From assembly GCA_023954815.1 (NCBI GenBank), contig JAGSHB010000045.1, positions 1-37,202 on the forward strand: a stretch of 37,202 bases of DNA. Direction: 5' to 3'. Each line of letters begins with the position of its first letter. Position 1 is the first letter of the stretch. Positions 9,173-25,878 of the stretch are shown piece by piece. A program made the position numbers and the translations under genes. The notes under the pieces were generated by a model that did no database searches, had not been told where the DNA came from, and was given only the letters and a program-made list of their open reading frames with translations. This DNA is from Myxococcales bacterium (GTDB lineage: Bacteria > Myxococcota_A > UBA9042).

Positions 9173-9534
9173 GGGGACGAACCGGTTTCGACGGGGGCGA
9201 TGAAGCATTATTTGCGTGTCGCGGAGCCTTCGGCCGCGTCAAAAAAAGGTATTTTTTTAAGTGCCAACGATAACGTTGAGTACGCTCTCGCTGCTTAATC
9301 TAGATTAAGTTGTAAGAGGGACGGCCGCCCGTGTCTGCCGGGGCGGAAGTTCTATTATTAGGCGGACTGGTTAGCGTGTGGGGCCTGAGCGCACGGTGAT
9401 AAGATTTAGCCAGGACGGCTTGGATGCACCTTGTCTTGTGGGGGGCTTCAATGACGTACAAATCACAAGACTATGCACGTAGACGGTAGTGTGGAACGTT
9501 TCCGGACCCGGGTTCGACTCCCGGCGTCTCCACC
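9173..9534 (+). ncRNA. ssrA: Transfer-messenger RNA (tmRNA)
   Basis: The 5' end GGGGACGAACCGGTTTCGAC is the hallmark tmRNA start. The 3' end contains a tRNA-like T-arm (GGGTTCGACTCCC) and an acceptor strand GTCTCC-ACC that pairs with the 5' GGGGAC (one G-U pair). The final A of CCA is not encoded. The tag reading frame at 9263-9298 encodes ANDNVEYALAA followed by TAA, a typical proteobacterial degradation tag with the ALAA end. The total length of about 362 nt is normal for a one-piece tmRNA. tmRNA rescues stalled ribosomes with SmpB and tags the nascent chains for proteolysis. Confidence 0.96.
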
Positions 9535-9551
9535 TTTTGTTCAATAATCTT

Positions 9552-9592
9552 ACACCCCGCCCCATCGCTTCACCGCGGTGGGGGCGGGGTGT
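9552..9592 (+). terminator. Terminator after ssrA
   Basis: A perfect 12-bp stem (ACACCCCGCCCC at 9552-9563 with GGGGCGGGGTGT at 9581-9592) with a 17-base loop, 17 bases past the tmRNA 3' end. The downstream T-tract is weak (TCTCGTTC). Confidence 0.75.
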
Positions 9593-10046
9593 TCTCGTTC
9601 GACCAACCCACCACAATGCCCCAGGACGGCCGATAATCTGGCCAACCCCCTTATCTGCCTTGGCCCCCGAAAAGCGCCGCTAAGAGGCTCCCAGGCGCCC
9701 TAGCGGGCATTTTACCTCCAAGACCAGGCTCAAAACGGACGCGCACGCGGCGTTCCGGATGGACTGACTTCAATCGCACCGCCTGCATGAGAGGCATCAC
9801 TCTGACTATCTCGCCCCGTGCGCGCTGTTGTCGCGGCGGACGGGTCCGTGAGGAGCGCCTTCACGCGCGCTATCTCAAATTGTGATCTTCGAATATCTGG
9901 ACGCAAGTGAGAGGGAACAGTCCCTTGGCTAGCTGTTGGCTAAAGGGTTGAGTTCTTTGCCTATGGGCGTCGCTGGATGTGAATGCTTCCCTGAGACGAA
10001 GGAGTGGTGACGCATGACATCGTGCGGCGCTGGCAGTTGCGGAATC
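9593..10046. other. Gene-poor stretch between ssrA and the viperin gene
   Basis: No convincing gene is seen in about 450 bases. Near 9910-9950 there is a small AGGGA/TCCCT hairpin (loop ACAG) followed by two copies of TTGGCTA. This could be a weak 3' structure for the viperin-fusion transcript, but no T-tract is present. No integrase or clear attachment-site duplicate is visible. Confidence 0.4.
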
Positions 10047-11561
10047 TCAAACAGCTTCCTGATACGTGCTCCTGGGCACGATACGCGGCCGTCGTCCCGG
10101 GGACCGCCCGGCGTCCTCGTTGTCACCGACCTCGCGGCGCGAACGCTCGCGGTGGGCGATCTCACGACAGACCGACGCGACAACCCCGTTGGGCGACTGC
10201 TCGGCGTCCACGCTGAGGTCACACAGCGCCCGATAGCCGGCGAGCACGCGGTCGCGAAATGCGTGATCTCGGGCCAAGCGCTGCTCCTCGGTGGTTGCGC
10301 CGTCGCCGCGACCCGCGTGCCGGGCTCGCCTCTGCGGCTCCGGCAAGTCCAGCAGCACCGTCAGGTCTGGCCGCGGGAAGTCGGCCGGCCAGTCTGCTTC
10401 CGTGGCCACTTCACCGAGTTCTGCGCGTCCAAAGGCGAACGTGCTGGCGGCGGACCTGTCGAGCACCACATAGCTGCCCTTCGACTGACGCGCTAGCTCC
10501 ACCGCTCTGCGGTTGGCGCCGAGGTACCACTCACGTCGCTGTGCGGCCGGGAGCTTGTCGGCTGCCGCGCGTTCGTGGGCGAGCTCCTCAGGGGGATTGC
10601 GAATGACTCGAGCGCTCAGTCGCTTGGCTAGGAGGCCGACCGTGGTCGACTTCCCAGTGCCGTCGAGGCCCTCGATGGCGACGATGAAGGGCCGGGAGGA
10701 TGGCTTGGCTCCCTGGCGCCAGTTGTACAATCCCCCCCGGGCGACGAACTTGTCTCGCTGCCAACCTACCTGGGCGAGTGCGTTGGCGACCCCAACCTCG
10801 GCGATCGGCTCGCTGGTGGTGTAGCTGCCGTCCGCGTTGCTGAAGAAGCGACCCTGGGGATCGATCATCACATACGAGTTGGTCATCGCGTCGTTGTCTT
10901 CGGCGATGAGCCCCAACCCCTCGGCGGCGAGATGGGCGTGCCGCGACACAAACGCCTGGAATTGCGCGGTGGTGATGCGCAGCGGCTGCACCCGGTCGGC
11001 GTTTTCACCCTCGATGCTGAGCACTTCGAAGGCCTTCCAACGCTCCGGCCGAATCTGGCGAACGAGCCTGGAGAGGTCCTCCTGCCAGTTGAGCGCCGTC
11101 ACGACGGAGTTGAGCTTGAGGCGGATGCCGCGGCGGCGGATGTCTTCGGCGAGCGCCAGGCTTCGGCGCACGTGGTCGCCGTGGCCGCGGCCGAGTTGAG
11201 CTTGGACAGACTCCCGGGCCGAATCGACCGACAGGCCTACCCAGTGGACCGCTGAGCCGGCCGCATCGAGGACTGCTGGCAACTTGGCGCCGTTGGTGAC
11301 GATGCAGGTGGTCATGCCGAGCTTGGCTGCGTGGACAACCAGCTCAGGGAGTCCCGGATGCAAGGTGGGCTCGCCGCCGACGAACGTGATCTTCTCGGTA
11401 CCGGCCGCTTGTAGGTCATCGAGGATCTTCATCGATGCTGCCGTGCTGATGGTGTTGCGTGCGTTGGGGAACGTCGCGTAGCAGAACGTGCACTTGAGGT
11501 TGCACTTCGGCCACAGGTGAAAGTTCACGGCGATGGGTTTGAGGGCGGCGGGCTGTGACAC
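10047..11561 (-). CDS. Prokaryotic viperin fused to a CMPK2/thymidylate-kinase-like domain
   Basis: This is a 504-residue two-domain protein. Residues about 10-283 are a radical-SAM viperin: the CX3CX2C cluster CNLKCTFC (C20, C24, C27) in NFHLWPKCNLKCTFCYATF, VGGEP, LKLNSVV, the RWKAFEVLSIEGEN block, and a C-terminal run DPQGRFFSNADGSY, EVGV, RGGLYNW. These match animal viperin (KINSVIN, RWKVFQ, IEGEN, RGGKYIW) and bacterial pVips. Viperins convert CTP, and in bacteria also UTP or GTP, into 3'-deoxy-3',4'-didehydro nucleotides that terminate viral RNA synthesis. Residues about 289-472 are a P-loop kinase: Walker A GLDGTGKST (298-306), RNPPEE, WYLGANR, VVLDRS, FPRPDLTVLLDLP. These match CMPK2 most closely. 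The Arg-rich tail has no assigned role. GTG at 11561 is preferred because GGAG lies 7 bases upstream; TTG at 11582 is possible. Confidence 0.9.
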   Translation of the reverse strand: MSQPAALKPIAVNFHLWPKCNLKCTFCYATFPNARNTISTAASMKILDDLQAAGTEKITFVGGEPTLHPGLPELVVHAAKLGMTTCIVTNGAKLPAVLDAAGSAVHWVGLSVDSARESVQAQLGRGHGDHVRRSLALAEDIRRRGIRLKLNSVVTALNWQEDLSRLVRQIRPERWKAFEVLSIEGENADRVQPLRITTAQFQAFVSRHAHLAAEGLGLIAEDNDAMTNSYVMIDPQGRFFSNADGSYTTSEPIAEVGVANALAQVGWQRDKFVARGGLYNWRQGAKPSSRPFIVAIEGLDGTGKSTTVGLLAKRLSARVIRNPPEELAHERAAADKLPAAQRREWYLGANRRAVELARQSKGSYVVLDRSAASTFAFGRAELGEVATEADWPADFPRPDLTVLLDLPEPQRRARHAGRGDGATTEEQRLARDHAFRDRVLAGYRALCDLSVDAEQSPNGVVASVCREIAHRERSRREVGDNEDAGRSPGRRPRIVPRSTYQEAV

Positions 11562-11685
11562 GGGGCGACTCCATTCAGGCAAGCGCCATCCGGAGACAGC
11601 GGGACGGAACCTCGCTGACTCAGCCCTAGCGGCGTCAGGAGGGCTGACGGTCCGTGGCTTGCCGTTGTGGAGAAGACGGTTGGCG

Positions 11686-11868
11686 ATGGCCGTGTCTGAC
11701 GCGAGCCACTATCTCAACGATAACGCTTGGCGAAATGACCAGTTTGGGAGCGTCAGCAGGCAGGAGTTGGCACTGGTTACCGCATCGCTCGAAACGCTGA
11801 GTCGATGGGCCCACCAAGCGGTGACGCGCACGACGACTGTCGATGATTCACTCGAGCATGCGACCTGA
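11686..11868 (+). CDS. Possible small ORF divergent from the viperin gene
   Basis: This is a 60-codon frame starting at an ATG with only a weak, distant GGAGA. The product (beginning MAVSDASHYLNDNAWRNDQF) is hydrophilic with a balanced composition, and the frame is less GC-rich than the surrounding genes. It has no recognised domain. It fills most of the 311-base gap between the viperin fusion and the next minus-strand gene, and could equally be non-coding leader or promoter DNA. No function is assigned. Confidence 0.25.
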   Translation: MAVSDASHYLNDNAWRNDQFGSVSRQELALVTASLETLSRWAHQAVTRTTTVDDSLEHAT

Positions 11869-11872
11869 AATC

Positions 11873-13555
11873 CTAAGGGCTTGAGCAATTACGACCGTTG
11901 AGCACGCAATCGAGACCAGCCACCATCGAGCTGGCTGCTTTGGCAGTCGCTTGAGTCGCGGCGCGACGTTCCAAGACTCGGAACACGGCTACGTCATCGT
12001 CAGGAGCAGGGGCCAGCCTAGTCAGGCTCATCCGGCCGCGTATGGCGAGGTATCGCTCCGTACTTGGCTGCATGACGTAACGGACCGTGACCCACGTAGC
12101 CATGGCGCGCCAGGCGACATCGACCGCCTCGCCTCGGACCCCACCGCGTTGAGATTCGGCAAGCGTCAACGCTTGGTCGACTGCGCGACGCCAGAGGACG
12201 AGTGGTGCCGGCATTCGTACAAACCAATGGGCCGAGCCCCACCGGACTCCTCGCCTACGGCTCTTGGCCCAATCCAACGCCTTTCGCTTCGCTTCTGCCG
12301 GGGCCCAAGAACGGGGCATCACATGAAGACCGCTCGGCTGGGAAACGCCCGGCCGCCCACGTGCTGCCGCGACTCTGACCGGGCGCTCCAACTCCTGGGC
12401 GAGACGCAACGCGAGCTTTGCTTGTTGGGCGCTGCCATCCTGCAATTCTGGATGTCCAACGGCATTTGTCGCTTCCACGGCTGCGTCCAGGCAGAGCTTC
12501 AACGGACTGCGCATACAATCTCGCATAGGTGCGGTCGAGCAGCATCGCTCCAGGATCGCAAGACGAGCTTGTGCGACGATACGGCGCTCCTTTGGCTGCG
12601 GCGCACTCGGTTCCGCCATGTACGCCTCTGCCTCCAGCAGTCGCGTCTCTGCCCAACGGTGAGAACCCGGTTGCCCGTCCGACTGGGCTGCGGGCGGGCC
12701 AGCACCGAAGTCTTCCAGTGCGTCGAATAGATGCTGGATGACCGCCGCGCGGCCGCCGACTGCGTCAGCTAGGGTATCGGTGTTCTCACCATCGCCGGAG
12801 CTGGCATCCTCCGCAGCTGTCGAGGGAACCTCGCCTACGGCAGCACTCTCGCTTCCAGCACTCCGCCGAACTCCGGCGTCCTCGCTCTGACCGCTTTGTT
12901 CAGCCCTTTGGGGGGCGGCGGATGGCTCCTCAGCGGGGCCAACAATCACTCGAACTCCAGGTGCGGGGGCGTCTCCTCTCGGCATCTCTATGACGGCCCC
13001 CGCGAGCGGATTCATACCGACGAGGGATTGGAGTTCGGGCTGAAACGCAACGACACTCGCAGCCGCGACCGCAGCGACGATGGCCAGCCCCAGCAGTCGC
13101 GCCGGCCTGTTGCCACTGGAACTGGAGTCACGAGCCGATGTCCATCCCGTACGCTCAGCCTCCAGCAGAATCTGAGCAATGAAATCCATGTCAAAGTCTT
13201 GTCGAAACCCGTGAACAACCCATGGGAGCACACGCTCAACCGTGCGGAGTTCGTCGCGGACGGTCTCATCGTCCAAATAGGACTGTTCGGGATTGAGATG
13301 GGTCCCCACGTTTCTCAGGCCATACGCGGCCTCCAGCTGCTTGAATATTGCACCATTGACGCTCTTGAGGCGTGAATGCCATTGGCTGACCCTCAGCTTT
13401 CCTTTTACGCCCAAAGCTGCGCCAGCCGCGCCCTCAAGAAGCTCGATGAACTGGCCGATCTCGCTGTGTTTGTGTTGCGGAAGTCCAGCCGCGCCAACCC
13501 GGTCTCGCAGCCGAGCCACGATGAAGTCGAGCCTGGGATCGTGCTCAGGAGTCAC
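11873..13555 (-). CDS. Single-pass membrane protein with possible N-terminal HEPN-like domain
   Basis: A 560-residue protein not assigned to a named family. The N-terminal ~140 residues are helical and contain LRNVGTH (R81, N82, H86), matching the R-N-x3-H core of HEPN domains, many of which are RNases in conflict systems. A single transmembrane helix (about 152-171) follows. Next come an Ala/Ser/Glu-rich low-complexity spacer (about 185-265) and a helical C-terminal part with several cysteines (CCSTAPMRDCMRSPLKLC), compatible with an extracytoplasmic location. The start is a GTG at 13555. It lies upstream of the viperin fusion on the same strand, separated by 311 bases, so co-transcription is uncertain. 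The HEPN assignment is an inference from one motif. Confidence 0.6.
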   Translation of the reverse strand: MTPEHDPRLDFIVARLRDRVGAAGLPQHKHSEIGQFIELLEGAAGAALGVKGKLRVSQWHSRLKSVNGAIFKQLEAAYGLRNVGTHLNPEQSYLDDETVRDELRTVERVLPWVVHGFRQDFDMDFIAQILLEAERTGWTSARDSSSSGNRPARLLGLAIVAAVAAASVVAFQPELQSLVGMNPLAGAVIEMPRGDAPAPGVRVIVGPAEEPSAAPQRAEQSGQSEDAGVRRSAGSESAAVGEVPSTAAEDASSGDGENTDTLADAVGGRAAVIQHLFDALEDFGAGPPAAQSDGQPGSHRWAETRLLEAEAYMAEPSAPQPKERRIVAQARLAILERCCSTAPMRDCMRSPLKLCLDAAVEATNAVGHPELQDGSAQQAKLALRLAQELERPVRVAAARGRPGVSQPSGLHVMPRSWAPAEAKRKALDWAKSRRRGVRWGSAHWFVRMPAPLVLWRRAVDQALTLAESQRGGVRGEAVDVAWRAMATWVTVRYVMQPSTERYLAIRGRMSLTRLAPAPDDDVAVFRVLERRAATQATAKAASSMVAGLDCVLNGRNCSSP

Positions 13556-13981
13556 TCAACGGCCTCGCGTGAACGGGTAGGAAAGGCAAGAACGTAGCCC
13601 CATCAGTGGATGGCAGTGAGGTTACTGTCAGGATCGCGAAAAAGACAGTCCGCAGGTCATGGCGGGTTCGTCCGCCTTGCACCGGGCAACCCGTCTCATT
13701 CCCTCGAAGCTCGCTCGGTCGTCGCGCAGCCCGCGCCAGACCCACCAGCTCGTCATTGTCTCCAACTCGCGCGGCCCGGTCTGGGCGAGGACAGGCGGTG
13801 CGGACCCATGACCCAAGTTCGACTTGCGATGGGCCTGGGTGCTCTGCTGGTTATTGGCGGGGGGTGGCGTCACTCCCAAAGCTCCGAGCCGTCGTCGCGC
13901 TTATCGGGCTGTCTACTCGCCCCCGTGTCGGTGAAGCCGCACATCCTGTTGGTCACGCATCCCAGCTCATCCCCCTAACCC
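13556..13981. other. Gene-poor stretch
   Basis: About 425 bases with several overlapping open frames of skewed (Arg/Ser/Pro-rich) composition and no domain match. A short frame from 13808 has a hydrophobic start (MTQVRLAMGLGALLVIGGG) but no clear ribosome binding site and a non-coding-looking end. I see no convincing gene. Confidence 0.4.
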
Positions 13982-14302
13982 ATGAGGCATGCCCTGAGAT
14001 CATCTCGTCATACTGAAACCTCGGACTCAACGGCGCTGCTGGCCTATGTGGATGTGGGTCATCAAGCCAATCATATCATTGAGCTTATAGGCCTGCCGAG
14101 ACATGAGCGGACCGCCGTTTGCTGTCCGGCCTGCAAGCGTGAGGTCATTTTCCGCTTGGGTAAGGTGCGGGCACCACATGCCGCCCATCATGTGACCTTT
14201 CCGCGGCAGTATACCAAGCGGCCAACGAACCAGCGCGGCGGTTGGTTCCTGGTTGGAAGCCGGCGAGTGACAACGCCGAGTGAGGCCTTCCGGGCACAGT
14301 GA
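13982..14302 (+). CDS. Short CoiA-like N-terminal zinc-motif protein, probably a gene fragment
   Basis: A 106-codon frame whose middle reads CCPACKREVIFRLGKVRAPH. This matches the pattern C-x2-C ... G-x5-H-x2-H at the N-terminus of competence protein CoiA-like and related predicted nuclease families. The expected downstream nuclease domain is missing. After HAAHHVTF the frame turns into unrelated Arg-rich sequence and stops. The likeliest reading is a remnant left by recombination in an accessory region; a free-standing small zinc protein is less likely. It is the only plus-strand candidate in this stretch besides the 60-codon frame at 11686. Confidence 0.4.
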   Translation: MRHALRSSRHTETSDSTALLAYVDVGHQANHIIELIGLPRHERTAVCCPACKREVIFRLGKVRAPHAAHHVTFPRQYTKRPTNQRGGWFLVGSRRVTTPSEAFRAQ

Positions 14303-14399
14303 ACCTGCGTGCGTCGACCTCTGCCTGTCTTGCCGCCGCAACTTGAGACCCAAGAGGGAAGCCGGCTGAATGCCTCAAGGTGTGCGGTCACCGACCGGG

Positions 14400-16175
14400 T
14401 CAGTAGAGATACCACCGCAGTAGCGCTGCCGTGAGACCAGCACCTGCGTACGCTTTGTGGAGGTGCCCGGCGATGCCTGGGGTGACGTCGGTGATGGCGG
14501 CCAGCAGCGCGGCGGAGTCATCGCCAGGCTGCGTCTCGGCCAGCGCAGAGAACAGGCGTCTGTGCTTTTCCAGCGAGTCCCGCCCAGCTGAGAGCGTCGC
14601 GCGCGCTGCGTCCCTGAGCGAGGGGGCACCGTAAATCATCCGCCAGCGGGCTGCCGAGAGCGCCACATGGGGAGGGCAGGTCGCATCATTCACGAGCGCC
14701 TGTAGCTCCAACAGATGTGCTGCCCGATTCGAGGCGTCTCCGGCGAGCCGTAGCCCCATGACCGCGCGGCTGAGTCGGAGATACCGCAGATTGGCTGCGG
14801 TGAGGCCGCCGGCGACCTCAAAGTCGGCCAGACAGGCGATGGCTTCAGCGGCTGCCGCGTGGTCTTGGAGGGCGCCCGCCAGCCTCATCCACTCACACAG
14901 CGGGTGCGAGGCTTGCTCGGGCTGCATCAACCGGAGCCACTGGCGAGCAGCGCGTTGTTGGAGTGCCATGGCGGCCGCCGGCTTTCCTGTGACGGAGAGC
15001 CACCGCGCCCATGCGCCCATCACCCGACACTCCGCTGGCGTCGGATCCGTCCCTGGCGCGCAGATCGACGCAATCTCGTCCTCAAGGCCGGTGGCCCACT
15101 CACTGCCTCGGTCGGTGCTGTCTTGGATGTAGTGCGCCAGTACTTGATGACGCAAGAACTGAGGTAGCCCCGAGGTCCATTCAAAGGGAGGCAATGGCCG
15201 CACACCATCGCTGTGATGTCGGCTCGCCACACTCGCGGCAAACAGGAGCTTGCCGCGCAGCTCGGCAGACAGCGCGGGTCCCCAGATCTCTGCTGCTGCT
15301 GCTGCGGCGACAGCGATGCCCGCCCAATGGGAGACCACGCCGTGTCCATCGAGCGCTAACTGGAAGAGCGCACTCACGACGCGTCGACACTCCCCATCGG
15401 AGAGGGCTGAGATGGCCTTCCGAGGGTCGACCGCCAGGGCTGTTGGGAGCAGCGCTGCGGCCGAATGAGCGGTCGCCACGCCAATCTGAGAATCGAGCTT
15501 GTGCAGGATATCTTCGGCTGCCTTCACTTGCTCACGGGCGACGAACACCGTCTCTATGCGAGGACAGCAACGGGCGACAGCGGCGAGCTTTGCAGCGAGA
15601 CCGTCGACCCCTGCGAGCCTGCCCTGCTCATCGATGCTGGCGAGCGCCACGACGTCCACCGCCAGCGGGACATTGGCCGCGAATGATGCACAGCGGAGAT
15701 ACAACGCCAAGCCAAACGATCGACCGTCGAGCGCCGTGCGGACCGTGGACGCGTCAACGGTTGTCTCTTCGCTGACGGATTCGGTCCAGACCCGAATTGG
15801 AGCGGCCTCGGGCATGCGTGCGAGCGGTCGAATCCGCAGCGGCGCTGTGCGCTGGGCGGCGACGATTGCGCTGTCCCGCGTGGCCAAGACCGTGGGGCTC
15901 ATCACCATCTCGGCGGTGGCGTCCAAGCGGGGGCCGCCTAGGCTGCACAGATCGACCGTGCTCAGATCGGCGCTGACACCCACCAGCAGGACTTGGCCGG
16001 GCACTAACTCGGCAGGCGTACGCAGCGCGCGGAGGTTTGGCGTGTCGGCCTCGGTATCGGGCTGCGCTCGCGGCGACATCCACGGCGCGCAGGCGAGCCT
16101 ACGCAGCGCGCGCTTCCGCTTGCGATTGCCGTGTTGACCGAGGGCTTGGCGGATCAGACGAGACGGCTGCGTCAT
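14400..16175 (-). CDS. Lon-type (S16) peptidase domain protein with helical C-terminal region
   Basis: A 591-residue protein. Residues about 60-245 resemble the Lon proteolytic domain without its AAA+ motor. The catalytic Ser lies in DGRSFG (S153, Lon DGPSAG) and the catalytic Lys in GVDGLAAKL (K196, Lon GGLKEKL). The Ser-to-Lys spacing is 43 residues, the same as in E. coli Lon (S679/K722), so the dyad is intact. The remaining ~340 residues are alpha-helical and Ala/Leu-rich, perhaps a TPR-like sensor or scaffold. No SAVED, CARF or NACHT motif is evident. It is the last gene of a four-gene operon and overlaps the preceding gene by 4 bases. In the CRISPR-associated CalpL system a Lon domain cleaves an anti-sigma factor. 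A similar job here is an inference supported by the adjacent sigma factor. Confidence 0.75.
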   Translation of the reverse strand: MTQPSRLIRQALGQHGNRKRKRALRRLACAPWMSPRAQPDTEADTPNLRALRTPAELVPGQVLLVGVSADLSTVDLCSLGGPRLDATAEMVMSPTVLATRDSAIVAAQRTAPLRIRPLARMPEAAPIRVWTESVSEETTVDASTVRTALDGRSFGLALYLRCASFAANVPLAVDVVALASIDEQGRLAGVDGLAAKLAAVARCCPRIETVFVAREQVKAAEDILHKLDSQIGVATAHSAAALLPTALAVDPRKAISALSDGECRRVVSALFQLALDGHGVVSHWAGIAVAAAAAAEIWGPALSAELRGKLLFAASVASRHHSDGVRPLPPFEWTSGLPQFLRHQVLAHYIQDSTDRGSEWATGLEDEIASICAPGTDPTPAECRVMGAWARWLSVTGKPAAAMALQQRAARQWLRLMQPEQASHPLCEWMRLAGALQDHAAAAEAIACLADFEVAGGLTAANLRYLRLSRAVMGLRLAGDASNRAAHLLELQALVNDATCPPHVALSAARWRMIYGAPSLRDAARATLSAGRDSLEKHRRLFSALAETQPGDDSAALLAAITDVTPGIAGHLHKAYAGAGLTAALLRWYLY

Positions 16176-17206
16176 CGAACGTCCTCAGCTGACCACCACG
16201 CCTCAGGCATGACGGCGTGGGCGCGATGCAGACGTGGGTCAGCGGGCAACGGTCCATGGTCCAGGGAGCGCAGCAAGCGTGATCCTGCGCGATCTACGAG
16301 TTCGAATAGCAGCTCCAATCCCGACAATCCGGCCTCTGCGGCGAGCAGCACTCGAGCGCCCTCCAGGTCATCTCGCCAATGGAGGAGTGCGATTAAGTCA
16401 TCGCTGGTGACGGCCGTGTCGTCATCGAGGTCGTTATGGTCGAGGGCCTCAATCTCATCGAGCAGCGACTCCAAGCCGACGCGGCCGAGGTCAACCACGG
16501 TCTCGCGCTGAGCGGATGACAACTCACTGGCCCACGCCACCGGCCCTGAAGGCAGCCCATCGCCGCTCAGCAGGGCTTGAAGCTGGGCCTTCGCGCTTGG
16601 CGCCTCATCCAGGCGATGAATCACCCCGGCTGCGCAGAGTTGGCGAAGTGGATCGCCTGACTTGTCGGCCGCGCCGACGAGCGCGGTGAGCCAGGGCGGG
16701 CTGGTCGGTTGAAGCCACTGGGACACGGAGACCTCCAGAGTGGCAAACGGAGCCACCGTCCAGGGCGCCTTTGCGAAAGACCAAGCTCGCGCGCTGCCGT
16801 CCGCATCTGCCGTGAGGAGCAAGGTTCCCAGCGTACCAGACGATATCGTCGCGCTGCCGCCCGGCTCGAGCTTCAGGTAGACCTCGGTGTCGCCTTCATC
16901 TCGCTCAAGCGCCGCGGCGCCGGTGTACTCAACCACCAGCGCGTCATCGGTCGTGGACCGAGCAGAAAAGATGAGCGTCTTCGCGGCCAGTTGAGCGCGC
17001 TCGACGACCAGGCCGAGGTCAGTCGTCAAAGAGCTGAGCACCGGCTGGCTGTCCACATCGCCCGCTGCGAAGTCACGCAACGACACGAGGCTGGGGGCCA
17101 ATCCGTGGGCCGCATCACTTGTCGCGGCGCCCAGCGCCGCGTCGCCGACTGGCTCAGATGGTAGACCAAATTGTCCCCGCAGCTGTTCAATGGACTTGTT
17201 CTTCAT
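16172..17206 (-). CDS. Unknown 344-aa protein between sigma factor and Lon-like peptidase
   Basis: I do not recognise this family. Residues about 60-165 look beta-rich (ALVVEYTG, TEVYLKLEPGG, GTLLLTADADG, ATLEVSVSQW). Residues about 170-344 look helical and acidic. There is no signal peptide, transmembrane helix or catalytic motif. Its start lies 67 bases after the sigma-factor stop, and its end overlaps the Lon-like gene by 4 bases, so it is translationally coupled to the peptidase. By position it could be the protease substrate or an anti-sigma-type partner of the upstream sigma factor, but no sequence motif proves this. Confidence 0.65.
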   Translation of the reverse strand: MKNKSIEQLRGQFGLPSEPVGDAALGAATSDAAHGLAPSLVSLRDFAAGDVDSQPVLSSLTTDLGLVVERAQLAAKTLIFSARSTTDDALVVEYTGAAALERDEGDTEVYLKLEPGGSATISSGTLGTLLLTADADGSARAWSFAKAPWTVAPFATLEVSVSQWLQPTSPPWLTALVGAADKSGDPLRQLCAAGVIHRLDEAPSAKAQLQALLSGDGLPSGPVAWASELSSAQRETVVDLGRVGLESLLDEIEALDHNDLDDDTAVTSDDLIALLHWRDDLEGARVLLAAEAGLSGLELLFELVDRAGSRLLRSLDHGPLPADPRLHRAHAVMPEAWWSAEDVR

Positions 17207-17273
17207 GGCTGCTCGTTCCTGGGCCGAAGGGCCGCTGCCGATATGACGCCGATTGGGGCCGTCGTCTGACGCG

Positions 17274-18080
17274 TCATTGGAGAGATACCCGGGTTCGTAG
17301 GAGCGCGCGGGCGAGCTCTTTGTCGATCTCCGGCTCTCGCTCTAGGGCCAACGAGATCCAATCGTCTAGGGCACGGCGGGCACGCTTGAAGCGAGCGTCG
17401 ATGGCGTTGCGGGTCTTTTTGAGCGTCTTGGCATCGGCGCCCGGGTCGCAGTGTTTGGCCACGTGGTCGTCCACAGTGAGCTCGCCTGCTGCGGCTCGTG
17501 CGAGGAGCGCTAGCGTTTCCTGGAGCTGCGTGCCTGTACCGCTTCTGCGCCTGTTCTTGCGTGCGACCAAGGCCGCGGTCTGCTGGTCTATCCAGGTGTC
17601 GGTCGCTGAAACCAGAGCCTGTTGCGCCTGCAACGCTTCCGCATTGGCCAGGGCTTCTTCGCCTGTCTGGGCATCTGGGTCTGCCAATAGCTCATGCCTT
17701 GAGCGCGCAGACTCTCCGACCAGCCCATCCAGGGACTCCTCGCGCTTGGAGGTCCGCTTGCTCTTTCGAAACAGATCGACTGCGCGGTTATGCAGCGATC
17801 GGCGCAAGTAGGCACGCGCAGCAGCTTCAGTTGTTGGCTGGCCTGTCATCGACCTCCGCGGACCTGTCTTGGCAATGTTCATGGCGACTCTGGAGATCGC
17901 CTCATCGGTGGCATCCGAGTCCAAGGAGAATGTGCGCAGCACCCGCGGTGCTAGGCGCTGTAGCTCCAGCCACAACCGCTCCATTGCCAGTGCGCAGTTC
18001 TTCCGTTCGGCAAGCGGCGCGGAGGCAGGCACGCAGCGCGCATCGAGCAGCGCGTCGAGTAGAGGGATGGGTCTACTCAT
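17274..18080 (-). CDS. ECF-like RNA polymerase sigma factor
   Basis: A 268-residue protein with sigma-70-family hallmarks. A region 2-like helix reads AYLRRSLHNRAVDLFRKSKR (residues about 90-109). A charged linker follows. A C-terminal region 4-like helix-turn-helix contains TRNAIDARFKRARRAL (about 223-238). It is longer than a typical ECF sigma factor (about 180-200 residues) because of the linker and an N-terminal extension. It would direct RNA polymerase to a specific promoter set. It overlaps the DUF3800 gene by 8 bases and precedes the unknown 344-aa gene. Such factors are normally held inactive by an anti-sigma partner, and none of recognisable family is encoded here. Confidence 0.75.
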   Translation of the reverse strand: MSRPIPLLDALLDARCVPASAPLAERKNCALAMERLWLELQRLAPRVLRTFSLDSDATDEAISRVAMNIAKTGPRRSMTGQPTTEAAARAYLRRSLHNRAVDLFRKSKRTSKREESLDGLVGESARSRHELLADPDAQTGEEALANAEALQAQQALVSATDTWIDQQTAALVARKNRRRSGTGTQLQETLALLARAAAGELTVDDHVAKHCDPGADAKTLKKTRNAIDARFKRARRALDDWISLALEREPEIDKELARALLRTRVSLQ

Positions 18081-19386
18081 CTGACCCTCCAGCGCTGCTG
18101 CGGCCGACGTGCACTGCCCACCTGTGGGCCTGTTCCCACGTCCATGGGCGGTCGGTCATGGGGATGAGTGGCGGGGAGGTGGTTGTAGATGTGGACTCCT
18201 CAAGCCACTGGCTTGGTCCGTAGGCAGCTGTCAGCGTGGGGAGCGCCTCAGGGCCGAGCGTCGCGGGAAGTCCGACCAACTCTTGAACGGCCAGTTCGGC
18301 TTGTTCCAGCGAGAGGCGACACGACAACGCGCGGCGTGCCGTGGACACCGCCCAGTCTGCCAACACGAGGGCTTGGTCGTCCGGAGACTCGTACGCGCAG
18401 ACGCGCCCTGTGCCTGCATCTTTGACGGAGAGCGCGTTCGCTTCTTCGGTCAGCCATTGGGCCACGTCCCACGAGGAATGACCGTCCCGCCAAGAACCGT
18501 CGCCCGTCGGAATCGACACCGACGCCGCGCATACATCCAACCCGCGCTCAGCGTTGTTTGACGACAGTTGGCTCACGCGCACCGAACGACGCATGGCGGC
18601 GCGCAGTAGCGTCTCGTGACGGCCTTCCCATAGGTGGTCACTGGCGGGTTCCGCAGCGATGCAGCAGCTCAATTCGCCAGGACTCGCGCCGGCCACGCGA
18701 ACGGCCCTACGCACAAAGGCAACGCACGCCGCTTTTCCGGACTCAAGAGAACGATGGAGTTCTGGCCGGTGCCGCTTCAGACGGCGCTCAAGGCGGCGCA
18801 GCTTCTGGAGATCGGGCCTCTTTCCCGCGCGAAGGGTCCCCACAACCGCGTCGAGCCGACGCGGATCGGCTCTGGCCAACCATCGCATCGCGAACGGGAT
18901 GTGCGATGGCCAGCCCAATTGGCGAAAGAGCCGCAGCATGACGTTGTTGGAAGCAGAGCCCAGCAGGGTCGTCACCCGAATCAGAACGGCTCGGTTGTAG
19001 CCGACCTCGGTCTCCGTCAGCGCTCGCAATTCAAGGGTCGCCGCCTTGCCACGGCTAGTCCCGGGCGTTAGCCCCTTCATTAGGGAAAACAGTGCTTCCC
19101 TGGTCTCTGGACTCAACTTGATCGTCGGGTGGTCCAGCAGTGCGGGCGGTCCAAAGGTTTGCCAGGACAGGGCGACGAATAGCGGTGAGCGGAGATGCGC
19201 TGCGTGAAGAGGAGCTTTGCCCCAAGGGTTGTGAAGAAACGGTAGTTGCTGCCGAATGTGCGCGCCGAAGCGGTGTACAGCGCGGGCACCCTCTCGGTCG
19301 AATAGCGGTCCACCCAAGCAAACCGCCTGCTCCGGCTTGGTGAAATCACCGCTCTCGTCGACGAACAGCTGCCACGGCTGACTCAT
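18073..19386 (-). CDS. DUF3800-type protein (predicted RNase H-fold nuclease)
   Basis: A 437-residue protein. The N-terminal QLFVDESGDF and the C-terminal DDQALVLADWAVSTA are the two acidic signatures of DUF3800 proteins, which have a predicted RNase H-like fold and often occur near phage, mobile or defence genes. The middle holds a large basic helical insert (RRLERRLKRHRPELHR), making the protein longer than usual for the family (about 200-300 residues). The ATG at 19386 is chosen because GGGAGCGCCC gives a ribosome binding site and the domain begins at once; the frame upstream is unrelated. It is the first gene of the DUF3800-sigma-unknown-Lon operon. Confidence 0.7.
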   Translation of the reverse strand: MSQPWQLFVDESGDFTKPEQAVCLGGPLFDREGARAVHRFGAHIRQQLPFLHNPWGKAPLHAAHLRSPLFVALSWQTFGPPALLDHPTIKLSPETREALFSLMKGLTPGTSRGKAATLELRALTETEVGYNRAVLIRVTTLLGSASNNVMLRLFRQLGWPSHIPFAMRWLARADPRRLDAVVGTLRAGKRPDLQKLRRLERRLKRHRPELHRSLESGKAACVAFVRRAVRVAGASPGELSCCIAAEPASDHLWEGRHETLLRAAMRRSVRVSQLSSNNAERGLDVCAASVSIPTGDGSWRDGHSSWDVAQWLTEEANALSVKDAGTGRVCAYESPDDQALVLADWAVSTARRALSCRLSLEQAELAVQELVGLPATLGPEALPTLTAAYGPSQWLEESTSTTTSPPLIPMTDRPWTWEQAHRWAVHVGRSSAGGSDE

Positions 19387-19460
19387 GGGCGCTCCCTGGT
19401 CTGGATCGCAGCCAGTGTGAGGTACCGCAGCGCGGGCACACAAGCCCCCCAATCACAAAC

Positions 19461-19485
19461 ACGCGTCAGACAGCCCGCTGTCCGG
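19461..19485. promoter_or_regulatory. Possible operator in the divergent promoter region
   Basis: The 152-base gap between the divergent DUF3800 operon and the HTH gene contains the inverted repeat GACAG-CCCG-CTGTC (19469-19482). It is placed as a shared operator would be. The match is short, so it may be chance. Confidence 0.3.
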
Positions 19486-19538
19486 TCGTCTAGCCCTCAT
19501 CACCAAACAAGGGCAACGGCAGTTGAGGGGAGGGTGCG

Positions 19539-19784
19539 ATGGCGAGCACGATGTTGCGGCAGTGGCTGATGCTGTCGATGATCCCGATAGCCCCCAGAAA
19601 GACGACGGCCGCGACGCTGCTCGATGAGCTGCAGGATAGGGGCTGGGAACTCGACGTGCGCACGGTGCAGCGCGACTTGCAGCAGCTGTCGACTGTGCTG
19701 CCGCTGGTCTGCGACGACCGCTCGCGGCCCTACGGTTGGAGCTGGCAAAGCGACGTGGTTCGCCCGTGGCGGCAGCGGAGGTAG
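19539..19784 (+). CDS. Truncated WYL-type transcriptional regulator, winged-helix half only
   Basis: The 81-residue product matches the N-terminal winged helix of WYL-domain regulators. It has an RKTTAATLLDELQDRGWEL helix-turn-helix, the recognition helix VRTVQRDLQQLS, and the wing PLVCDDRSRPYGWSWQ. Full proteins of this group (including the BrxR/CapW regulators of phage-defence operons) are about 280-330 residues and continue into a WYL sensor. Here the frame stops soon after GWSWQ, and no WYL sequence is seen in other frames before the next gene. A good GGGGAGGG precedes the ATG. It may be a remnant or a minimal DNA-binding regulator. Its divergent position points to control of the DUF3800-sigma-Lon operon. 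Confidence 0.65.
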   Translation: MASTMLRQWLMLSMIPIAPRKTTAATLLDELQDRGWELDVRTVQRDLQQLSTVLPLVCDDRSRPYGWSWQSDVVRPWRQRR

Positions 19785-19838
19785 GCAGGGCGCGATGCCC
19801 GCCTCGGGGGGGCCGCTGCCGCCCACGAGCGAACGCCC

Positions 19839-21869
19839 CTACAGCGGCGCCGGGAGCCAGCCAGATTTGCGTAGCTTCGAGACGTCGGCCACCTCAATCA
19901 CTGAAGGGAGCTGCCCCCAGCCGGATGTGATGGCCTTTTCCGCGGACACTTGGTTCCCCATGCTGGTGGTCTCCAGCGGTACGATGCAGCCCTTTGATGT
20001 CCCCCAACATTTCACCGCGACCAAGGCATGGCCAGGTGGGCTGACCAGTGCGGCGTCCATACCCAGGGCCTCGAGCGCGGCAGCGAAGACGATGGAGCCG
20101 TCGATGCAGTTGGCGCTCCCGCTCAGCAGGGTCTCGGTGACGGTCTTGATGTTCTGCGCACCACTGAAATAACTCCCAGGGACATTGACGTAGACGAGGT
20201 TGTACGAAACCAAAGCGTCGTAGATGGCCGATAGCTGGTCGGCCGCGCCTTCGTAGATGCTCATCTCCCGGCCGATGGTGAAATGCCGAGATGTGCTGTT
20301 GCTGCTGGGGTTCCAAGCGACGTGTACGTAGTAGCCGGCCTTCGAAATGAGGACCTTCTTCTGTAGCTTGCCCAACGCAGTCGACTCTACCAGCGGTTTG
20401 CCGCCCGTGCCGGCCATGTACGCTTTGTACTCCTCCATGGGAACCAGCCCGTAGCCAGCGTTGTACGACCAGCACACGCTGCACGTGACGCTGACGTCGA
20501 GGTTGATGACCTGGCCCGCCTCGTAGTAGGCGATCCAGCGCCGACTCGTTCCGCCTGGGAGCAGCGCGGTTACCGATGGCAGGTTCTTGCCGTAGACTTT
20601 GGACCCGTACGAATACTGATAGCCCGTCATGCTGCCGAAAATCGACTGCTTTGCGGCTTTAGTGAGCACCGTCTGCAGCCACTTGTCGTTCGGAGTGATG
20701 AGCGTGACCACAGAGTGAAAGCTGTCGAAGGGCTTGCCACCGATGGTCTTGCCCGACCACAGCACGGTGTCGACGGGCAGAACTTTGAGCTGCACTTCCC
20801 CCGTGTCCACCAGCTTGCCGTTCACCTCTAACGCGACTGTCGCCTTGCCAGGCACCGCGGAACTCAGCTTGTACAGTTGTGGACTCCAGGTCGGATCAAG
20901 CAGGACGGTCTTGCTGCCCTTGGCTGGCACCTTCACCAACTTCACCGCGGCCTTGGAGTAGCCCGCGAGCTCGCCCGTCACCTTCACCGCCGTCTCCACC
21001 GTGCCGGGGTTGTCGATGGTGACGCTCAGAAAGTGCAGCTCGCCCAACGAACCCACCTTGCTGCCATACAGGTGTGCCAGCCAAGTCGGGAAGAAGCCCC
21101 CTTGGTCGACGATCGAGGTCTTTACCGCACTCAGCTGTGCCAGCGGCGTCCCCGCGCCCCCTGGGGTGCCACACGCGACCGGATGCGTGCCGCTTGGATC
21201 CGCTCCGGCAGGTGGGCTGACGCAGTCGTAGTAGCCCTCCCCGGCGTTCCAGCCGCAGACCTTGCCGGTGGACGCGCAGTCGCTGGTGTCGCCCTTGCCG
21301 TTGGTGCAGTACAGCAGCGTGGCGCCCTGGCAGCAGCCCTGATAGCTCGTCACGTCACAGGGTTTGGTTGCGGCCATGCAAGTGGCGCCGTTGCACAAAG
21401 ACCCGCCCGCGCAAGTGCCACAGGTGCCGCCGCAGCCGTCGGAGCCACACTGCTTGCCTGCGCACTGCGGCACGCACTTGGCCTTGCAGACACCGGATGA
21501 CGTACAGATAGGTGCCGCAGCAGGGCAGGTGCCGCAGCTGCCGCCGCAGCCATTGGGTCCACACTCAGCGCCGCCGCACGTCGGTGTACAGCTTGATTGA
21601 GTCGTGTCTGTGCTGGTGGCCTGCCCGCCGGAAGTGTCCGGGGAGGTCGATTGACTGTCCATGGCAACGCCGCCATCGGTCCCGCCCCCGCCATCCGTGG
21701 CGGTCCCGCCATCAACTGTGGGGGCTGGCACGTAACCGTACCCGCCTCCTCCGGCATTGCCGCTGCTTCCAACACAGCCGAGCGGCATGAGCGCGAGCGC
21801 GGTCCACAGGGTGAGCCAACCCATTGTGTGGGAACGGGAAGACAGAAAGACGTCGGTAGACGATGCCAT
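19839..21869 (-). CDS. Lipoprotein with Cys-rich repeats and transglutaminase-like domain
   Basis: A 676-residue exported protein. The signal peptide ends in a lipobox (ALMPLGC). A Gly/Asp/Thr-rich spacer follows. Next come Cys-rich repeats of the CGxxGCGGxCGxC type (CGPNGCGGSCGTC, CGSDGCGGTCGTC) that are common in deltaproteobacterial surface proteins. A beta-sandwich-like middle precedes the C-terminal transglutaminase/papain-like region: Cys in SANCIDGS, His in PPGHALVAV, and acidic PLETTS, where Glu replaces the usual Asp. It may be a peptidase or cross-linking enzyme of the outer surface, or a catalytically altered relative. The ATG at 21869 follows GGAG at 7 bases. Confidence 0.75.
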   Translation of the reverse strand: MASSTDVFLSSRSHTMGWLTLWTALALMPLGCVGSSGNAGGGGYGYVPAPTVDGGTATDGGGGTDGGVAMDSQSTSPDTSGGQATSTDTTQSSCTPTCGGAECGPNGCGGSCGTCPAAAPICTSSGVCKAKCVPQCAGKQCGSDGCGGTCGTCAGGSLCNGATCMAATKPCDVTSYQGCCQGATLLYCTNGKGDTSDCASTGKVCGWNAGEGYYDCVSPPAGADPSGTHPVACGTPGGAGTPLAQLSAVKTSIVDQGGFFPTWLAHLYGSKVGSLGELHFLSVTIDNPGTVETAVKVTGELAGYSKAAVKLVKVPAKGSKTVLLDPTWSPQLYKLSSAVPGKATVALEVNGKLVDTGEVQLKVLPVDTVLWSGKTIGGKPFDSFHSVVTLITPNDKWLQTVLTKAAKQSIFGSMTGYQYSYGSKVYGKNLPSVTALLPGGTSRRWIAYYEAGQVINLDVSVTCSVCWSYNAGYGLVPMEEYKAYMAGTGGKPLVESTALGKLQKKVLISKAGYYVHVAWNPSSNSTSRHFTIGREMSIYEGAADQLSAIYDALVSYNLVYVNVPGSYFSGAQNIKTVTETLLSGSANCIDGSIVFAAALEALGMDAALVSPPGHALVAVKCWGTSKGCIVPLETTSMGNQVSAEKAITSGWGQLPSVIEVADVSKLRKSGWLPAPL

Positions 21870-22044
21870 GGAGAGGCTCCGGGTGGTGGGCTTGGATGCG
21901 GGCATCCTGGCCCATCCCTCCGACAACTGACGTCGCAGGCGAACAGGGAGCGTTCTATTGGGGCATTGGCCGGCTTCGGGAGTCGGTCGTCAGCGCGTCT
22001 GCGGCTCGGTGCTCGTCTGGCACGTCGAGGTTGGACTGGCCACC

Positions 22045-23385
22045 CTAGCGCTTGAGTAGCCGGGTACGACAAGAATCCCGAAGCTGCTGCGGGCATGCAG
22101 TCGGCTCGAGCGCGGCGTCGAAACACACCCACACCTCGCTGAGTTCGCTACCATCGCATCGCAAGACCGCGCGCTTGTGGGAAGCTCGCCATCCGGTAGT
22201 GGTCCAGTTGTGACGACGGAGGGAGTCCGACGGCAGCCGGCGCGTCGATGCGGTCGCTCTGGCTGCGGGACGGATGGTCTTGCGCCAAGCTTCCTCAGTC
22301 ATCTCGAAGTAGCGCTCCTGCGCCCAGCCTAGGCAGCGGCCGTGCTTGTTCCACTCATGGCGAGCGAGACCCATCGAGGAAAAGACGCGCTTGGCGGCGG
22401 CGGTTTGGTCGCGGCGAAAGGCTGGGCCGCGCCCGCATCGAATCGAGCGACCCGGACCTTCTTGAGGCCAGAGCCCATGCAGGCTGAAGCCCGTCTCTCT
22501 GCAGCGTGCCGTCAGCTTTAGGTGCGGTTTTGACCGACAAAAGTGCGGCATCCACGTCAGCGCGAGGACGTAGCCGTGGGGCTTGGTTGCTTCGGGAGAC
22601 GGTCGAGGCTCTCGTTGAGGTCGTCGGTCGTCGAGCACTTTCCTCGCCTTCGCGAGCGCGAGCTTTCGCGTGTGGCCAAACAGCATGGCGGCCCGTGCGC
22701 CTTCGGTCAGGTCACCGAGAGAACCCCTCTGCTGATCCAAGGCGTCAACCTGACGCTCGGAGTGTTGAAGCCTTTGCGGCAGGCGGTGAACCCACTTCTG
22801 CCAGACGGCGATCGGCGTCTTCCTCAGCCACGTTGGTCCTGGGGTCACCGCAGTGGCTACGAGCACGATAGTCGCAACCGCGACCAGCCAATTCCAGCCA
22901 TCCGACGAGGTCGACTTGAGCGCGGCCGCTAGGCTCGTCCAGAGCCACCACACGGGGAACAGCAGCGCCCAGCCCAGCCAGAGGAAGGAGATGCCGACGG
23001 GCTCCCACGAAGAGAGGCCCCCCCAACGGTCGGCGACGTGGCCGGCGATGATGAGGAGGATCGACAGAGACAGCCACCCAGACCATAGGCTCGCCCATCG
23101 CGTCGTCTTGTCGGTGTCACTGCTGGAGCGAAACACGCTTGATACCGCCACCACGGTGACTAAGGCGGCGAGCCCGCGAGCGGCGTAGGAGAAGCCCGCG
23201 GAAAATGGGCCAGCGTGCCAGGCGTCGAGGATGCGTAGGTCGAAGCCGGCGAGGTAGGATAGGAGCGCGAGGCTGGTGAGGTACGCGAGTGCGCCGAAGG
23301 CGAGGCTGGCGATGAGATGGACCACGCGGCCGATGGTGGCGCTCAGGCAGCCTGAGGATGGGGCGGCGGAGGCGGTAGTGGACAT
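22045..23385 (-). CDS. Membrane-anchored RNase T2 family protein
   Basis: A 446-residue protein. Residues 20-185 hold about five hydrophobic helices (for example HLIASLAFGALAYLTSLALL and WLVAVATIVLVATAV). A basic linker follows, then an RNase T2 domain (about 268-446). Both catalytic segments are present: CAS I GFSLHGLWPQEG (H303) and CAS II RHEWNKHGRCLG (H343, E344, K347, H348). RNase T2 enzymes cleave single-stranded RNA through 2',3'-cyclic phosphates and are normally secreted soluble proteins, so fusion to a multi-pass membrane domain is unusual. An odd number of helices would put the RNase outside the cytoplasm. The ATG at 23385 is preferred; an upstream in-frame TTG at 23421 is possible. 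Confidence 0.8.
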   Translation of the reverse strand: MSTTASAAPSSGCLSATIGRVVHLIASLAFGALAYLTSLALLSYLAGFDLRILDAWHAGPFSAGFSYAARGLAALVTVVAVSSVFRSSSDTDKTTRWASLWSGWLSLSILLIIAGHVADRWGGLSSWEPVGISFLWLGWALLFPVWWLWTSLAAALKSTSSDGWNWLVAVATIVLVATAVTPGPTWLRKTPIAVWQKWVHRLPQRLQHSERQVDALDQQRGSLGDLTEGARAAMLFGHTRKLALAKARKVLDDRRPQREPRPSPEATKPHGYVLALTWMPHFCRSKPHLKLTARCRETGFSLHGLWPQEGPGRSIRCGRGPAFRRDQTAAAKRVFSSMGLARHEWNKHGRCLGWAQERYFEMTEEAWRKTIRPAARATASTRRLPSDSLRRHNWTTTGWRASHKRAVLRCDGSELSEVWVCFDAALEPTACPQQLRDSCRTRLLKR

Positions 23386-23517
23386 ACGGTCAGAGTGAGG
23401 CGCCCACAGCCCGGATGGCAAGCGAGGTAGATAGGGCGACGGGTCAGTAGGACGTGGCAGCGCGGCGGAGCGGTCATTTTGCCTCGAAATACAAGCTCCA
23501 AATCGGACCTCGTCACC

Positions 23518-24978
23518 TCACGCCCCAAGCATCAATACCCGCCGAATCTCCACCATCACCAGCGTATCCACGGCGCAATAGGCCAACAGCTCGGTAAAGA
23601 TCGCCGCTCGCTCCTGCCCCTCTTCCAGCGCCATGGCTCGCTCATAGGCCCGCGCCGCGGCCAGCCCGTCGCCGATTTCCAGCGCTTCATACCGCCCAGG
23701 CCCCAACAGCGCCGGCACCACACGTTTGAGTGAATATGAGCCCTCAAACGCCGGCTCCATCACGTGTCGCTCGATGACCTTCTTCAGGTCCCAGCATCTC
23801 GGTAGCAACGCCAGCAAAGGGTCCGCCAAGTCGGGAAGGACCTTGGCCAAGTCGCGAATCACCCGCATCTCGAAGCTCGTGTAGATACAGATGCTACCCG
23901 TCTGCCCGACACTGCTGAGCAGGGCCTCGGCCAGCGGGCGCCGCGGGTCTGTGTTGGTCCGCACGATGAACTCGTCATGCCGCACGGAGCCATCGGCGTG
24001 CTCGATGTGGTTCGACCACTGGGTCGGCAGTTGCTCGAACGGGCGGGTTCCCACGATCCTAGGGATGGCCGGCATGGTGGTCTCGAAATCCAGGTACGAG
24101 ATCGGGTAGACGGGCTCACGAATCGCGACGGGCAGCTCCGGAGAGCGCCATCCGCGGCCTTGCAGTGTGGCATCCAAGGCGCGGCGTTGAGCGGCATTGA
24201 GCGGCCAGCCATCGGGGATGTCCTCCAGCTCGCCAATACCTTTTTGAGCCCACGATGCGGCCGTTTTCGGGCCAACCCCGGGCAGCAGGGTCACGGGGTG
24301 AACCGGCAGCTCCAGCCCTGCGCTACACTTGGCGATGAAAGGGCATGGGTACGGGCTCGTGCAGTGGGCGCCCATGTCGACGACCGGCGCGGCATCGTTC
24401 AGCAGCATGGCGCGAAGCTTCGGTACGGTTCGGCCGACCTCGTGGAGCATCGCGCGCAGTTCGCTGGTCTTGTCGTGGAAGGCAAATAGCTGCTGCAAGT
24501 CGTGCTCACCACCTCGGTACACATAGTCGCGATTGAGGGTCAGCACCCCAGCACGGCGCACAGCCACGCCCGTGCCACCGAGGACCCACAACTGGATCGC
24601 GGCGTCGTCGAGATGTGCCGGCTTGGGGCGGGCGGTCGCTTTGACCTCCACCAGGTCCCACTGCCCATCCGGCGCTCGGCTCAGTACATCGACCCGCACG
24701 AGCACGCTGTCGTGCACGAACGCAGCCTCGTAGATCGCCGGTGTGGTCTTGTCGGCCATCGCTGTCTGCGTGCGTCGCACCGCTTGGCGGACATTGAGGG
24801 TGTCGATCAGCACCCCATCACCATAGCGGTACTGGGCCAGCTGTCCGACCCGATTGCCCGTCTCGAATCCCGAACGCGCGCGGTCGTCTGGGGCCGTCGC
24901 AGTCTCAGGGTGATGCACCTGATTGTGCAGGCGAAGCGTGCACTGCAGGCCGGCGGTGTAGCGCGATTTCGAGAGCAT
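23518..24978 (-). CDS. DUF2779 / Cas4-RecB-like Fe-S nuclease
   Basis: A 486-residue protein of the DUF2779 / TM0106-like family. The N-terminal half is a PD-(D/E)XK nuclease (D97 in RVDVLS, E111-V-K113). Four cysteines are positioned for an Fe-S cluster as in Cas4/AddB (C13, C206, C212, C218). A helix-hairpin-helix (LLPGVGPKTAASW) follows. The C-terminal half carries YLDFETT (D297, E299) and YCAVDT, like a DEDD 3'-5' exonuclease fold. The protein probably processes DNA ends. It starts with MLSKSRYTAGLQC, typical of the family. It stands alone, divergent from the universal stress gene. Confidence 0.78.
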   Translation of the reverse strand: MLSKSRYTAGLQCTLRLHNQVHHPETATAPDDRARSGFETGNRVGQLAQYRYGDGVLIDTLNVRQAVRRTQTAMADKTTPAIYEAAFVHDSVLVRVDVLSRAPDGQWDLVEVKATARPKPAHLDDAAIQLWVLGGTGVAVRRAGVLTLNRDYVYRGGEHDLQQLFAFHDKTSELRAMLHEVGRTVPKLRAMLLNDAAPVVDMGAHCTSPYPCPFIAKCSAGLELPVHPVTLLPGVGPKTAASWAQKGIGELEDIPDGWPLNAAQRRALDATLQGRGWRSPELPVAIREPVYPISYLDFETTMPAIPRIVGTRPFEQLPTQWSNHIEHADGSVRHDEFIVRTNTDPRRPLAEALLSSVGQTGSICIYTSFEMRVIRDLAKVLPDLADPLLALLPRCWDLKKVIERHVMEPAFEGSYSLKRVVPALLGPGRYEALEIGDGLAAARAYERAMALEEGQERAAIFTELLAYCAVDTLVMVEIRRVLMLGA

Positions 24979-25125
24979 GGCGGGTCCAGTATCGGGTGTG
25001 GAGCGGGCGACGGTAGCACGCAGGAAGGCCTGGAGGTGCCGGGCGTGAACTGTGCCCTAGCAGCCGAGATTCTCGGTCCTATGTTGTCATTGGAACTGGG
25101 CCGCTCGGCGGCGAGGAGGTGAGTC

Positions 25126-25614
25126 ATGAAGACGATTTTGGTCCCCATCGATTTTAGCGACGGCTCACTGGCGGCTCTAACAACTGCCGATAAGCTGGCG
25201 GACTCACTGGACGCGTCCATCACGCTGCTACACGTCGTGCACCGTACCGCTGGCCTGACCCGGCCCGATACGGGGCTCGATCCAACCCTCCAGGAGATCG
25301 CCTGGGACGGTCTCTACGACGACGAGGAAACGTTGGAGCTGGCGCGTACGGAGATGACGCGCTTCTTGGTGCGGACGCCGGATACGCGTCATCCGAAGCA
25401 AGTGATCTTCCGCGCCGGTTTGCCAGCGGACGCCATCGTTGACGCAGCCGATGCCATCGATGCGGCGATGGTCGTGATGAGCACCCATGGTCGCCGTGGG
25501 TTGGCCCGCGTGTTCTTGGGCAGTACAGCAGAGGAAGTCGTTCGCCGTAGCGATTGCCCCGTGCTGACGGTCAAGCCGCATGCGTCGCTCGACCCGCACG
25601 CCATGCTGGGCTGA
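25126..25614 (+). CDS. Universal stress protein (UspA family)
   Basis: This 162-residue single-domain Usp begins ILVPIDFSDGS and ends with the ATP-binding signature STHGRRGLARVFLGSTAEEV followed by CPVLTVK. The first Gly of the G-x2-G-x9-G-S motif is Ser. Usp proteins bind ATP and support survival under stress. An ideal GAGGAGGTGA precedes the ATG. It is transcribed divergently from the DUF2779 gene, with a 147-base gap. Confidence 0.9.
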   Translation: MKTILVPIDFSDGSLAALTTADKLADSLDASITLLHVVHRTAGLTRPDTGLDPTLQEIAWDGLYDDEETLELARTEMTRFLVRTPDTRHPKQVIFRAGLPADAIVDAADAIDAAMVVMSTHGRRGLARVFLGSTAEEVVRRSDCPVLTVKPHASLDPHAMLG

Positions 25615-25878
25615 ATGGTCAAGTAAGGGTCTGGCGGCCAAGAGAGTGTTGGCTGCTCCCACGTGGTCATCGATCTGGCCTGTGAAGACTTTATTGTAGG
25701 GATACAAGCCGGCGCTGCCGTGGACCCGCGCGCTGAGTTTCCCGTCGATATAGCCGCTTGTCTGTCAGACCCTTGCATCGCGGTTTGTCGTCTCGCAGAC
25801 TACAAATGTTCATAACTCGCGTTGTCACACCCCCACAATGTCGACCGCGCCTTCGACCGCCCCATCGAGGTTGTGGAG

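Follow-up and report, generated by a model that had tools for sequence, protein, structure and literature searches.

In animals, viperin and the kinase CMPK2 are encoded by neighbouring, co-induced genes. A locus in a Myxococcales bacterium raises the question whether a bacterial viperin and such a kinase can be parts of one protein and, if so, what the kinase does there. The locus lies in a 37,202-nucleotide stretch of DNA that was analysed whole (the window). An earlier note, made from the sequence alone, read one of its frames as a viperin followed directly by a CMPK2-like kinase.

Two complete domains in one frame

The window encodes in one frame a complete viperin-type radical-SAM domain and, behind it, a complete domain of the thymidylate-kinase fold, in agreement with the earlier reading. 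The gene occupies positions 10047..11561 of the minus strand, from a GTG start codon at 11561 to a stop codon at 10047-10049, within a single uninterrupted frame (11582..10047). Translation from the GTG yields 504 residues, and from an alternative TTG at 11582, 511 residues. The GTG appears the likelier start, because the sequence GGAG sits 7 nt upstream of it. The cluster cysteines are C20, C24, and C27 when counted from the GTG, and C27, C31, and C34 when counted from the TTG.

The viperin domain (10734..11534, minus strand) carries the CxxxCxxC cluster motif, and all motifs that the earlier note had listed are present in the fusion protein. The viperin domain scores 273-275 bits against NCBIfam NF038283 (curated cut-off, 180 bits), and matches PADLOC pVip at 2.7e-82 over residues 16-283. 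Residues invariant across an alignment of 22 viperins include C27/C31/C34 (TTG numbering), GGEP, K156, and N158. When the AlphaFold model of this half was searched with Foldseek, viperins took ranks 1-30 (best E 1.1e-23). In the PDB, the closest structures are CTP- or UTP-bound viperins from fungi and mouse (E 1e-23 to 4e-22), with a TM-score on the target of 0.87-0.91. A MoaA-like identity, the pitfall named beforehand, is ruled out: the MoaA family of NCBIfam scores only 65 bits against this half, versus 273, and MoaA reaches only 1.3e-7 in Foldseek. The viperin half is a bacterial viperin.

The full-length AlphaFold run used an alignment restricted to the window, genome-scan, and viral loci. 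Its viperin half is well modelled, its kinase part is of low confidence, and its arginine-rich C-terminal tail falls below a pLDDT of 50. The relative placement of the domains in this prediction is unreliable, and the models lend no support to a substrate-channel geometry. The tail (10050..10136, minus strand; about residues 483-511, some 29 in all) is missing from the nearest relative, G013, and is not conserved.

The kinase half and its altered motif

The kinase domain (10143..10697, minus strand) matches Pfam Thymidylate_kin (PF02223) at 2.2e-14 over about residues 300-468. Taken alone, this half matches the PADLOC family PDC-M51B at 1.3e-24 and is modelled by AlphaFold with a pLDDT of 85; the best PDB matches of the model are thymidylate kinases of Pseudomonas, human, and others. 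Its motifs include the P-loop (EGLDGTGKST), the sequence DRSAAST, and the LID arginines.

The fold and the P-loop are shared with the housekeeping thymidylate kinase, Tmk, but the clade is separate. A tree of 43 kinases contains a branch with 100/100 support that sets every housekeeping Tmk, including that of E. coli, apart from a group of 28, the window kinase among them. Moreover, the Tmk model TIGR00041 gives it 44.3 bits, below the cut-off of 83.25 bits, and the genome encodes a separate, canonical Tmk on contig C81. A housekeeping identity is thereby ruled out.

Within the group of 28, the fused kinases of five genomes form one clade (100/98), and a single change suffices to account for the fused state on this tree. 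The same group includes kinases encoded by separate genes beside viperin, one in genome G150 and two in G300: the G150 kinase is nearest to the fused clade (95/66), and those of G300 lie further off. A profile made without the fused kinase of G401 gives that kinase 205 bits, versus 42-58 for housekeeping Tmks.

Most of the 28 kinases have DRYW-ST at the catalytic site, a sequence that resembles the published CMPK2 motif, D-R-x-W-H-S-T-A (PMC9132166), and is also present in the viperin-adjacent members. The fused clade differs. Its five motifs, DRSAAST, DRSVAST (twice), DRSFAST, and DRCFAST, conform to DR[SC][AVF]AST, with the Tyr and Trp of DRYW-ST replaced by Ser or Cys and by Ala, Val, or Phe. 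Set against the CMPK2 motif, the window sequence (DRSAASTF) keeps D, R, S, and T, and has W and H replaced. The P-loop, the Asp-Arg pair, and the LID arginines are intact and invariant in eight fused or adjacent kinases. The description of the kinase as CMPK2-like thus appears correct at the level of the group that it shares with viperin-adjacent kinases; it does not extend to D-R-x-W-H-S-T-A, since the catalytic-site motif is changed in the fused clade. With that Tyr and Trp lost, the substrate choice of CMPK2 cannot simply be transferred to the fused kinases.

Related kinases are also present in many Myxococcota genomes in which no viperin was detected. Because several members of the group reside in such genomes, it is not exclusive to viperin, and a general rule that the kinase is linked only to viperin was rejected. 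Three genomes without a detected viperin (G037, G342, and G198) have CMPK2-group kinases near a weakly viperin-like, radical-SAM frame (loci L283, L285, and L290). A separate observation concerns G120, where a Tmk-like domain begins a 582-residue open frame on contig C79 (L167:1441-3186).

Relatives, origin, and surroundings

The viperin-first fusion is found in five genomes from two phyla. Four are Myxococcota: a survey of 379 genomes from this phylum identified viperins in 32, and the C-terminal kinase of the Tmk fold in the window genome, G013, G120, and G350. The fifth, G401, belongs to the phylum of planctomycete record L027, where it is the only one of eight viperin genomes, among 343 genomes surveyed, to have the fusion.

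G013 represents another genus (g8) of the window's family, and its fusion is 62-64% identical to that of the window. A contig break splits the gene, such that C287 covers residues 13-237 and C343 runs from residue 192 to the end; the two are identical where they overlap. C343 aligns with the window protein without a gap over residues 191-480, straight across the domain junction. Differences at codon positions 1, 2, and 3 number 25, 26, and 53 in the viperin part, and 57, 51, and 105 in the kinase part. Both halves are under purifying selection, as judged from this pair.

These relatives settle the question of an artefact. The window comes from a draft genome in 314 contigs, and misassembly, a lost stop codon, or a chance join might have placed a radical-SAM gene in frame with a housekeeping thymidylate kinase. 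Such an explanation has almost no chance of being correct. An assembly artefact or a chance join is excluded, because the G013 sequence passes through the junction without a gap and differs mostly at third codon positions; four more genomes have the same architecture; and the kinase lies outside the Tmk clade, scores 44 bits against a TIGR00041 cut-off of 83, and coexists with a canonical Tmk. The artefact is already refuted by the relatives, and with it the earlier note's own caveat about a missed stop or an ordinary Tmk.

The plasmid and phage sequence collections held no record covering 80% of the fusion query, and no fused or adjacent kinase of the window type accompanies the clear viperins of 21 viral contigs (L194-L214). 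The N-terminal extensions of the long frames L087-L090 matched no Pfam or PADLOC domain, and read like out-of-frame, GC-rich sequence.

The viperin tree places the fused proteins in two lineages: the window and G013, with the unfused viperin of G014 inside (99/94); and G120, G401, and G350, together with the unfused viperin of G485 (100/99). A tree test rejects the five fused viperins alone as one clade (p 2.5e-6), and is compatible with a clade that also takes in G014 and G485 (p 0.495). Possible origins, as read from these trees, are one old fusion followed by two kinase losses, or two fusions that drew on the same kinase clade.

A second type of fusion accompanies the first. Four other Myxococcota viperins (G079, G121, G067, and G205) have a C-terminal deoxynucleotide monophosphate kinase domain, PF21448 (E 4e-11 to 6e-16; L062:4865-5440, L066:4844-5392, L068:1575-2123, and L086:926-1504). 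These domains gave no cross-match to the profile of the Tmk-fold kinases, and the kinase part searched had no match among the PADLOC families. Their viperins group with the unfused viperin of G058 (98/93). Because the PF21448 fusions are unrelated and form their own group in the viperin tree, two kinase families have become attached to the viperin C-terminus in separate events.

The fusion gene is the first gene beyond the 3' end of the tmRNA gene, ssrA (9173..9534, plus strand). The same-genus genome G003 has no viperin gene, and keeps the lpd-purD-ssrA synteny; beyond it, a segment of only about 2.3 kb takes the place of window positions 9535-25860, and gene order matches again from near 25.87 kb, a difference of some 16 kb. 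Neither an integrase nor a flanking repeat was recognised in the window, the tmRNA 3' end is not directly repeated, and one gene of the segment still has a homologue in genome G002. For these reasons the region is claimed only as a variable stretch, and not as a proven genomic island.

The other genes of this stretch have no recognised defence function, except for a weak Cas4-like match (5e-4) in a DUF2779 protein (23518-24978). The gene beside it (22045-23421) matches the ribonuclease T2 family. A 591-residue protein with a weak Lon_C match is encoded at 14400-16175, with a 4-base overlap between its start and the end of the gene before it; of 24 genomes searched, only three besides the window genome have homologues, G014 among them. 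A PilZ-domain gene (25822-27915) contains a tandem repeat with a 30-nt unit in its C-terminal part (27006-27185). Relatives of the fusion are in clearer defence company than the window gene: a GmrSD-type restriction gene lies 43 bp downstream of the fusion in G350, AbiEi/AbiEii genes lie near that of G013, and a restriction-endonuclease family gene lies near that of G401.

Proposed function and known systems

What would a kinase contribute to viperin? The fusion is probably a bifunctional antiphage enzyme, in which the kinase feeds pyrimidine nucleotides to ddh-nucleotide synthesis. The C-terminal kinase would phosphorylate a pyrimidine NMP, be it CMP, UMP, or a deoxy counterpart, to the NDP. 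A nucleoside-diphosphate kinase of the cell itself would then carry NDP to NTP, and the viperin domain at the N-terminus, using SAM and its [4Fe-4S] cluster, would convert the NTP to 3'-deoxy-3',4'-didehydro-NTP, a chain terminator that would stop phage RNA synthesis. Fusion would supply one kinase for each viperin (1:1) and increase the local substrate concentration in infected cells, at a time when phage takeover drains NTP pools. The substrates, the order of steps, and the antiphage effect are proposed by analogy with animal cells, in which CMPK2 acts upstream of viperin (PMC10058120), and with the kinases adjacent to bacterial viperins: a CMPK2-like kinase gene adjoins 15% of bacterial viperin genes (PMC11249213). 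The separate kinase genes next to viperin in G150 and G300 speak for this reading as well. The scheme of the earlier note, NMP/NDP to NTP to ddhNTP within one protein, was overstated, because a kinase of the Tmk fold makes NDP, and the step from NDP to NTP needs another kinase.

The altered DRYW-ST site puts the substrate of the fused kinases, and even their activity, in question, and two other roles may be weighed against feeding. The first is product salvage. A kinase joined 1:1 to the enzyme that makes the product would be as well suited to recycling as to feeding: it might return ddhNMP, arising from RNA-end trimming or ddhNTP hydrolysis, to ddhNDP, and so recycle the terminator. The changed motif, DR[SC][AVF]AST, could likewise fit a changed sugar. 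However, the paired animal CMPK2 is placed upstream of viperin (PMC10058120), and salvage seems unlikely as the main role.

The second is a part in sensing, regulation, or assembly, for example through binding of a nucleotide that changes during infection. The lost Tyr and Trp would suit such a role, as would two features of the relatives: the kinase can be absent, as in G014, and other viperins have a kinase of an unrelated family in this position. But the P-loop, the Asp-Arg pair, and the LID arginines are all retained, and a non-catalytic role would not need them; we regard this role, too, as improbable. The position of the unfused G014 inside the window/G013 viperin clade does suggest that viperin can work without the kinase. 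A kinase that feeds viperin remains the reading that we favour.

A broader proposal is more tentative. These proteins might constitute a distinct class of bacterial viperin, defined by a CMPK2-type kinase with a remodelled motif, in viperin-first order, on two viperin lineages; and the family of the fused kinase, either of the Tmk fold or a deoxynucleotide monophosphate kinase, might reveal which ddh-nucleotide each viperin makes. This is possible, if doubtful. Two unrelated kinase families at the same end of different viperins also provide a rule that can be tested: the base of the antiviral nucleotide should follow from the partner kinase. If the rule is true, it would permit guesses, from sequence, at the products of many uncharacterised viperins. 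Moreover, a natural 1:1 fusion, with two active sites that can be killed separately, offers a clean test of the dependence of viperin on a dedicated kinase.

How does the fusion compare with known systems? Prokaryotic viperins (pVip; NF038283; PADLOC PDLC02903/02904) agree with the window protein in fold, in the cluster motif, and throughout the viperin domain. Most pVips surveyed, however, are single-domain proteins of about 280-300 residues, whereas in the window protein the kinase follows directly. Bacterial viperin-adjacent CMPK2-like genes (PMC11249213; G150 and G300; PADLOC PDC-M51B and VakA models) encode kinases of the same group, but as separate genes and with DRYW-ST. In vertebrates, RSAD2 (viperin) is likewise paired with a thymidylate-kinase-fold kinase, CMPK2; those are two adjacent genes, and the window fusion lacks the W-H of the CMPK2 motif, the published motif being the only basis of this comparison.

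The literature searched, a set outside which the main prokaryotic viperin paper (Nature 2021) falls, contained no description of a viperin-first fusion. The closest precedent is PADLOC pVip-kinase (PDLC02905, "Viperin-kinase fusion"), which also joins viperin and a kinase in one polypeptide. The viperin part of the window protein matches this model at 1.1e-69, over model positions 182-463 of 474; the kinase part of PDLC02905 is therefore N-terminal, whereas that of the window is C-terminal, and the window kinase half alone gives no match to it up to E 10. Domain order and the unmatched kinase rule out membership in that family. A viperin-kinase fusion is not wholly new, given this 2023 model with the opposite domain order; the viperin-first fusion is a genuine variant, found repeatedly, of a defence theme already known from bacteria.
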